A program made the position numbers and the translations under genes. A stretch of DNA of 61,027 nucleotides from the NCBI RefSeq assembly GCF_000383235.1, contig NZ_KB910947.1, forward strand, positions 1 through 61,027. Direction: 5' to 3'. Positions 1 to 58,486 of the stretch are shown piece after piece (positions within the stretch are counted from its first letter, which is position 1; every line of letters begins with the position of its first letter). The notes beneath the pieces were generated by a model. The model made no database searches and had not been told where the DNA came from. It saw only the letters and a program-made list of their open reading frames with translations. The stretch comes from Bacillus sp. 123MFChir2 (GTDB lineage: Bacteria; Bacillota; Bacilli; Bacillales; Bacillaceae_G).

Positions 1-26
1 AAGAGCTTTTAAAAGCAGTAATGTAA
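1..26 (+). CDS. 3' end of a tandem copy of the small amphipathic peptide gene (partial)
   Basis: The first 26 bases read in frame as the last eight sense codons (EELLKAVM, minus part of the first codon) and the TAA stop of the complete peptide gene at 119-199. The match continues beyond the stop codon without a change to base 78. The gene is cut by the window edge, so its 5' part and any further copies lie to the left. Seen directly: the repeat and the shared stop. Inferred: that this copy is intact upstream. Confidence 0.7.
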
Positions 27-118
27 GTTTATTATTCCGCAATTATTTATAAAAATTATCATACAAATGATCTGTATATGAAAGATAAATAGATGTACAG
101 AGCAGAGGAGGAAATCAT

Positions 119-199
119 ATGGAAATCGCAATGGCAGTTTTAAAATTTATAGGTGGAATACTTCCATTCGTAGAAGAGCTTTTAAAAGCAGTAATGTAA
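119..199 (+). CDS. Small 26-residue amphipathic peptide, toxin/bacteriocin-like
   Basis: An ATG is preceded by a near-perfect ribosome site (gaggagg, 105-111, 7-base spacer) and opens a 26-codon frame ending in TAA. The peptide has two acidic ends (E2, E19, E20), lysines at 9 and 23, a Gly-Gly at 12-13 and a single Pro at 16; the rest is almost all aliphatic or aromatic. It has no leader or export signal. The length is that of staphylococcal delta-lysin (26 aa) and bee melittin (26 aa), and the stretch AVLK-x5-LP also occurs in melittin; this may be convergent. A membrane-active peptide of the leaderless or phenol-soluble-modulin kind is inferred. A signalling peptide or a type I toxin is also possible. 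I do not recognise a named family. Confidence 0.65.
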   Translation: MEIAMAVLKFIGGILPFVEELLKAVM

Positions 200-235
200 G
201 TTTATTATTCCGCAATTATTTATAAAAATTATCAT

Positions 236-282
236 ACAAATGATCTGTATACCAAATATAAATTGATGTACAGATCATTTGT
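236..282. other. 14-bp inverted repeat after the peptide gene
   Basis: acaaatgatctgta (236-249) is the exact reverse complement of tacagatcatttgt (269-282), leaving a 19-base loop. The right arm is degraded after the first tandem copy (around 92-102), so only the last copy can form the full stem. It may protect the 3' end of the peptide mRNA. Confidence 0.6.
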
Positions 283-288
283 GTGAGC

Positions 289-322
289 AAAGTCCCTTTA
301 GTATAATGAAGGGACTTTTTTT
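289..322 (+). terminator. Rho-independent terminator of the peptide gene array
   Basis: aaagtccctt (289-298) pairs with aagggacttt (309-318) and is followed directly by a T run to 322. This closes the peptide transcription unit. Confidence 0.85.
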
Positions 323-25690: not shown

Positions 25691-26030
25691 TTATGGTCTT
25701 AATTAATGTATTTATGTATCTTACAAAGTTCAAATCGTAGATATGTAATATTACATAAAATAACAATAGTTTATACTGCTATAATATAAGAGCAAAATGA
25801 CTCCATATTATGGAGCGCATATATAACAAAATACCCTAAGATTTTATTACAAAAAGGCGAAGAGTGTTTATCATTCTTCGCCTTTTTGTATCCTTTACAC
25901 ATATTGTCATGTAAAGGAAGATCTTAAAAGTTGAATTATTTATTTTAAAAATCATTATATCTATTTATAATGAAAATGGGGATAACAATATATAGAGTGT
26001 ATTTATATCATTTAGATGGGGGAGCTTGGG
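25691..26030 (+). ncRNA. Candidate small RNA or orphan leader ending in a strong terminator
   Basis: A tataat (25780-25785) precedes about 100 bases without an ORF. These hold a small hairpin (ctccatattatggag, 25801-25815) and end in an 18-bp terminator stem (25849-25866 with 25872-25889, core aaaaaggcgaagag). No -35 box is obvious. The terminator has no gene before it on the plus strand, so a short transcript is the simplest explanation. The terminator is symmetric enough that it could also serve the opposite direction. Bases 25890-26030 carry the chemoreceptor promoter area. Confidence 0.4.
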
Positions 26031-58090: not shown

Positions 58091-58157
58091 TACCTCTTTT
58101 TTTTAACTTGTTATTTCCATAGAATCAGCGTAGACTCTGAAGTAGATGAATAAGAAA

Positions 58158-58250
58158 ACACATGGGAGTTTGTGGATGCAAACTGAGAGTACGGCTAATC
58201 CGTCGTTGACCATTTGAACCTGTTGGGTAATGCCAGCGTAGGGAGAGTGT
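58158..58250 (+). promoter_or_regulatory. TPP riboswitch (THI element)
   Basis: The conserved blocks are present in order: catgggag, aactgagagtacgg, then gaccatttgaacctgttggg, taatgccagcgtaggga. acac (58158-58161) and gtgt (58247-58250) can close helix P1. It binds thiamine pyrophosphate and, with the terminator that follows, would stop transcription of the thi genes when TPP is plentiful. Confidence 0.95.
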
Positions 58251-58266
58251 AAAAAGCACATTATGA

Positions 58267-58471: not shown

Positions 58472-58486
58472 GAAGGGGTGAGAGAA

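Follow-up and report, generated by a model that had tools for sequence, protein, structure and literature searches.

The left end of the window, by which is meant the whole 61,027-nucleotide stretch of Bacillus sp. 123MFChir2 DNA that was analysed, is occupied by a small, repeated peptide gene. The complete gene, at 119-199 (+), runs from ATG through 26 codons to TAA and encodes the 26-residue peptide MEIAMAVLKFIGGILPFVEELLKAVM; a ribosome-binding site, AGAGGAGG, can be read at 104-111 (+), 7 bases 5' of the ATG. Upstream lies the 3' end of a further copy (1-26, +), in which ELLKAVM is in frame and a stop codon occupies 24-26. Base-by-base comparison revealed that positions 1-78 recur exactly at 174-251 (+), comprising 26 bases of gene end and 52 beyond, with a repeat period of 173 bases, and because of this exact match the truncated sequence is regarded as a second, in-frame copy cut by the window edge. 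Across positions 1-600 no repeat is longer than this one of 78 bases; in 30 single-base shuffles of the same stretch the longest reached 12. In the spacer between the two copies (27-103, +), the 52 bases after the first stop equal those after the second, and the inter-copy spacer is identical at 77 of 92 bases overall. One complete copy is present in the window, and ‘array’ refers here to the cut copy together with the full arrays of relatives.

Behind the last copy, folding gave a long hairpin with 20 outer pairs (232-286, +), followed by an intrinsic terminator of 12 pairs and a T-run (289-318, +), for which the scan found 1 against 0.2 expected. The next gene after the terminator is methyltransferase-like and starts at 555, so that no cytolysin gene directly follows this copy. 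An earlier note, made from the letters alone, had described a 26-codon gene with a ribosome site and a terminator, as well as a second copy at the edge that is identical at its end and for 52 bases further, and both descriptions are borne out by reading of the sequence, the terminator scan and the exact repeat. The window is probably chromosomal, since the plasmid collection contains nothing close to its alcohol dehydrogenase gene.

Relatives of the gene on Bacillus plasmids

A tblastn search at E 10 of 72,556 plasmid records matched three, all of them plasmids of Bacillus arachidis YX15, which together carry ten copies of the gene. Plasmid unnamed1 has three tandem copies with a period of 146 bases (L001) and one single copy (L024), unnamed2 (NZ_CP127374.1; L002, L115) has five tandem copies with a period of 163, four of them full and one lying across the record start, and unnamed3 has one (L003). 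The eleventh relative is the one copy in the 79-kb IMG/VR contig 2531839366_000001 (L056), which is more plasmid-like because a ParA-type ATPase and a transposase are present by Pfam. Among the pattern scans of IMG/VR, the first returned none, one returned 88 stretches including this contig, and two returned this contig alone; 80 of the 88 were examined and one, the same contig, contained a relative. A phage origin was rejected, as the peptide had no match in 50,697 phage records and none in the first IMG/VR scan. A pattern scan of genome contigs gave 10 stretches, none titled Bacillus, which is not counted as absence, given that Spp1 as published matches the scanned pattern; four Flavobacterium-type stretches from it, with frames of 24-36 codons, scored 39-47 against at least 96 for true relatives and were taken as chance. 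Sets of 101 and 149 genomes from the phylum to which a Clostridia MAG belongs returned no relative, a result that is uninformative.

Homologues in other records retain frame, length and ribosome site, and 16 of 26 residues are common to the seven distinct peptides in an ungapped alignment, which together indicate that the gene is not a chance open reading frame. Loss of the frame or the ribosome site among close relatives was among the things that the earlier note had named as counting against the locus, and both are retained in the homologues found; further copies occur in other records, with ten on the YX15 plasmids, tandem in two arrays, and one in the IMG/VR contig. GAGGAGG precedes the other full copies, and AAAGGAGG precedes the first unnamed2 copy. 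Since the array periods differ (173 in the window, 146 and 163 on the plasmids), separate amplifications are suggested. Repeat units compared inside the unnamed1 and unnamed2 arrays show 0-1 differences; between the first and third coding copies of unnamed1 there are 12 base differences, and the first unnamed2 copy has a different start. That such genes would be missed by gene finders, as had been anticipated, is seen in all ten YX15 copies, which lie outside any gene listed in the incomplete PLSDB gene table.

The structures behind the genes are also shared. Four relatives were folded (L001, L003, L024 and L056), and in each of them the RNA behind the last or only copy forms a long hairpin and then a second, terminator-like one ending in a T-run; the fold there reaches z -6.8 to -10.2, with 0 of 200 shuffles as good. 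Inter-copy spacers, in contrast, are no more stable than their shuffles in 3/3 cases, the window spacer having z -0.33. The strict terminator scan is positive for the window and L056 and negative for L001, L003 and L024.

The Spp family and its control

On sequence, the window peptide is firmly assigned to the Spp (small PlcR-regulated peptide) family. It is identical to the printed Spp1 of Bacillus cereus ATCC 14579 at 19 of 26 residues, with the same length and no gap (PMC1913518), and its relatives are identical to Spp1 at 19 to 22 of 26; the Gly-Gly at 12-13, invariant in all seven distinct peptides, is also in Spp1. The assignment is firm because this identity is joined by the PlcR boxes of relatives and by the order of array and cytolysin gene, the promoter of the window locus itself lying off the window edge. 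According to the available text of Brillard and Lereclus 2007 (PMC1913518), bacteria of the B. cereus group have the 26-residue peptide gene in several copies, three being the maximum for one genome; in ATCC 14579 the copies are dispersed and depend on the quorum-sensing regulator PlcR. In every published spp-bearing genome, one copy lies 5' of a cholesterol-dependent cytolysin gene and, in ATCC 14579, one is co-transcribed with cereolysin O; pep2 and pep3 are without an adjoining cytolysin gene (PMC1913518). Moreover, sppc1-3 fall within the 45-gene PlcR regulon, where they are listed as antibacterial-activity peptides (Gohar et al. 2008, PMC2464732). The earlier suggestion of an unrecognised locus must thus be given up, the peptide being Spp, named in 2007 (PMC1913518). 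Models of Pfam, NCBIfam (E 1) and PHROGs gave no match for the window or the unnamed2 peptide.

The loci described here share with published Spp/SppC the length of 26 residues, the identity to Spp1, Gly12-Gly13, a strong ribosome site, the PlcR boxes (in relatives) and, for one array, the position 5' of a cholesterol-dependent cytolysin gene. They differ in that copies in the window and on two YX15 plasmids stand head to tail in one apparent operon, with up to five in a row. The five-copy array of unnamed2 ends 48 bases 5' of a gene matching Thiol_cytolysin with 518 bits. On this YX15 plasmid, a PlcR box and five spp copies are thus combined with a gene for a cholesterol-dependent cytolysin; the corresponding set of B. 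cereus ATCC 14579 is described as lying on the chromosome.

An exact PlcR box, TATGNANNNNTNCATA, ends 79-92 bases 5' of the first ATG in all five visible promoters of relatives; in published spp genes the box is placed at ‘about 100 nucleotides’ upstream, and expression is PlcR-driven from a sigma-A promoter (PMC1913518). The sole exact PlcR box in the window, TATGTAATATTACATA, occupies 25742-25757, in the gap 5' of a methyl-accepting chemotaxis-like gene at 26016. In addition, four of the five spp promoters (L001, L003, L024 and L056) contain a cre-like element matching 15 of 16 positions of the B. cereus consensus, taken from the CcpA paper (PMC2358912). The site, at 4636-4651 in L001 and at the corresponding places in the other three, has the PlcR box on one side and the -10, which it touches, on the other; when one upstream region was shuffled 2000 times, a 15/16 match arose in 12 cases, and the fifth promoter, that of unnamed2, has a weaker cre-like element. 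These elements suggest that catabolite repression may be added to the PlcR control of spp; the main text of the CcpA paper, as far as it is available, makes no mention of cereolysin or BC5101 (PMC2358912).

Three of the five loci with visible promoters have a divergent ORF of 44 residues upstream (L001:4364-4498, -; L003:9698-9832, -; L114:10165-10299, +), which is transcribed away from the spp genes and has its own AGGAGG site and, by eye, a C-terminal membrane-like stretch. The two YX15 plasmids concerned have the same ORF sequence, to which the version in the IMG/VR contig is 73% identical; the ORF has no match in PHROGs or NCBIfam, and its one Pfam match is far below cut-off.

With regard to the peptide itself, no leader is recognisable, and the helical moment exceeds that of shuffles in each of the seven distinct peptides (P 0 to 0.005, 5000 shuffles each), with a net charge of -1 to +1 among related peptides. 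The monoisotopic mass calculated for the window peptide is 2861.59, or 2889.58 with a formyl group. The earlier description of a leaderless, amphipathic, tandem peptide gene finds its basis in these properties and in the repeat. Selection was assessed by change counts on nine distinct gene sequences, from which duplicates and the copy interrupted at the unnamed2 record start had been removed. Changes between polar and non-polar classes number 3, against 8.0 under neutral change including stops (P 0.02); synonymous changes, at 8 of 25 (P 0.13), are not in significant excess when counted as a test of purifying selection, and 10 of 36 gene pairs have a dN above their dS. The evidence of selection from substitutions is weak, and only class retention stands out.

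The phenol-soluble modulins and delta-lysin of staphylococci are short, leaderless, amphipathic, near-neutral peptides, linked to quorum sensing and sometimes encoded in tandem. Spp resembles them in being short, leaderless, roughly neutral and an amphipathic helix, as well as in its connection with quorum sensing and its tandem copies, which is likeness and not membership, and differs from them in its regulator, PlcR instead of Agr. The PDB, which contains peptides of the phenol-soluble modulin type, gave 0 sequence matches among its chains at E 10, a search of low power with a 26-residue query. Spp is not known to have an exporter. Melittin, a strongly cationic peptide, also has 26 residues and the AVLK-x5-LP motif. 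The earlier note was right that this motif is in the window peptide, but it is present in only one of eight distinct peptides compared, and a net charge of -1 to +1 sets Spp apart; kinship with melittin was therefore rejected.

Among bacteriocins, the aureocin A70 peptides are nearer to Spp in size than bacin and thucin. The latter two (PMC9602277 and PMC9484092, respectively) are likewise products of the B. cereus group; each has a mass of about 5.5 kDa, and their genes are accompanied by transport-related ones. Spp has in common with leaderless bacteriocins (bacin, thucin and aureocin A53/A70) the missing leader and several similar adjacent copies, but differs from bacin and thucin in its 2.9 kDa and in having no transport-related genes recognised alongside. 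Membership of the aureocin A70-type or phenol-soluble modulin groups, which had been raised from the gene arrangement, received no support, as there is no family or sequence match (with a query of low power) and no transporter or immunity gene was recognised alongside on the right side of the locus, the only one in view. The sole transporter gene in the first 4.5 kb of the window is an MFS gene on the opposite strand (1373-2599), nearest to a phenylpropionate transporter model and below its cut-off. Next to the YX15 copies, no bacteriocin transporter or immunity genes were recognised in gene tables that are incomplete; the single unnamed1 copy does have an HlyD-type gene at a distance of about 4 kb.

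A probable tandem operon and its alternatives

Judged from sequence, the locus is very probably the end of a tandem spp operon, with at least two copies encoding the leaderless 26-residue Spp and probably one PlcR-dependent transcript that ends at 289-318. Transcription would start to the left of the window, at a putative PlcR promoter like those carrying the boxes in relatives, and one mRNA would run through all spp copies and stop at the terminator. The peptide would exit the cell at full length, probably as an N-formylated amphipathic helix, and may act on membranes late in growth under PlcR. By this route, tandem copies would provide a higher dose of peptide from a single mRNA, and the position of the terminator, solely after the last copy, fits such a single-transcript, raised-output arrangement. 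Most likely, then, the gene was multiplied to increase the dose of a peptide that is leaderless, amphipathic and active on membranes, its secretion and role being putative. Activity on membranes, proposed in the earlier note, is plausible from the published record, in which the synthetic 26-mer had weak antibacterial activity, producing only a small zone on Bacillus at 2.45 mM, although its authors caution that hydrophobicity may lie behind the millimolar doses and that neither synthesis nor secretion had been demonstrated (PMC1913518).

Brillard and Lereclus hypothesized cleavage after Gly-Gly because the 13 C-terminal residues, as a synthetic peptide, had greater activity than the full 26-mer (PMC1913518). 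Spp would then be a double-glycine bacteriocin or signal, in which residues 1-13 serve as leader, an ABC transporter-protease cuts after Gly12-Gly13 and the last 13 residues are active. The pair is invariant not only in the seven distinct peptides but also in all orthologues of 2007, as reported (PMC1913518), which agrees with such processing. However, the hydrophobic face continues across Gly12-Gly13, with 6-25 degrees between the helix halves in 8/8 related peptides, a weak argument since the peptides are related and the in-phase halves amount to about one observation, with a chance of roughly 1 in 7. No peptidase-type transporter is listed around the YX15 copies in the incomplete gene tables, and conservation does not discriminate, 9 of 13 columns being invariant before the cut and 7 of 13 after it. 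We consider this processing unlikely. Less probable still is that the peptide is the toxin of a type I toxin-antitoxin repeat restrained by antisense RNA. Ldr and Ibs of Escherichia coli are tandem repeats of this type, and Spp is likewise small and hydrophobic, repeated in tandem and, in several relatives, on plasmids. Furthermore, in 5/5 loci scanned the opposite strand has a promoter-like site immediately behind the last or only copy (228-255, -, in the window and the matching places in L001, L003, L024 and L056), which agrees with the consensus at 9-10 of 12 positions. An antisense transcript from this site would run back over the gene, and the site is repeated behind the cut copy of the window. 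These five loci are not independent sightings, however, because the sites sit in conserved hairpin sequence, and the totals of such sites per region are near chance (7 in the window against 3.7 expected, sd 1.9; 3-4 elsewhere against 3.0-3.7). The locus has no Rfam match at gathering scores, and the published PlcR-driven expression from a sigma-A promoter (PMC1913518) also speaks against a toxin.

A similarly slim chance attaches to the proposal that translation of spp serves solely to couple or adjust the expression of a gene that follows, for example the cytolysin gene, the peptide itself being inert. It would account for the copy 5' of the cytolysin gene in each published spp genome (PMC1913518) and for the five on unnamed2, but the last or only copy in the window, L001, L003, L024 and L056 is followed by the long hairpin and the terminator-like hairpin with its T-run, and amino-acid classes are retained beyond neutral change (P 0.02).

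The tandem operon of Spp genes thus remains preferred, and with it the locus adds no new kind of molecule; it is a known family in an unusual tandem layout. The peptide, its PlcR regulation and its link to the cytolysin were already known. What looks new is the head-to-tail layout, with at least two copies in the window, three on unnamed1 and five before the cytolysin gene on unnamed2. The word ‘tandem’ is absent from the available text of Brillard and Lereclus 2007 (PMC1913518), and titles and abstract openings contained no report of head-to-tail spp operons, which is a weak absence, as the subscription literature lies mostly outside that coverage. The number and arrangement of spp on plasmids went unnoticed because no family model matches and the copies fall under no listed gene. 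The tandem arrays, including five copies 5' of a cytolysin gene, suggest that the cell needs much of the peptide, and so large a demand would make the unexplained role of Spp easier to test. A bolder and decidedly doubtful proposal is that the repeated head-to-tail expansion of Spp in Bacillus, both on plasmids and in the genome of the window, is a dosage device for a leaderless peptide that is under quorum control, active on membranes and a co-worker of the secreted cytolysin, with the divergent 44-residue membrane protein as its immunity or export partner; if true, this would constitute a system similar to phenol-soluble modulins outside staphylococci, with a regulator of its own. Elsewhere in the window, a TPP riboswitch scoring above the Rfam gathering score is located at 58152-58261, 5' of a thiamine monophosphate synthase gene at 58478.
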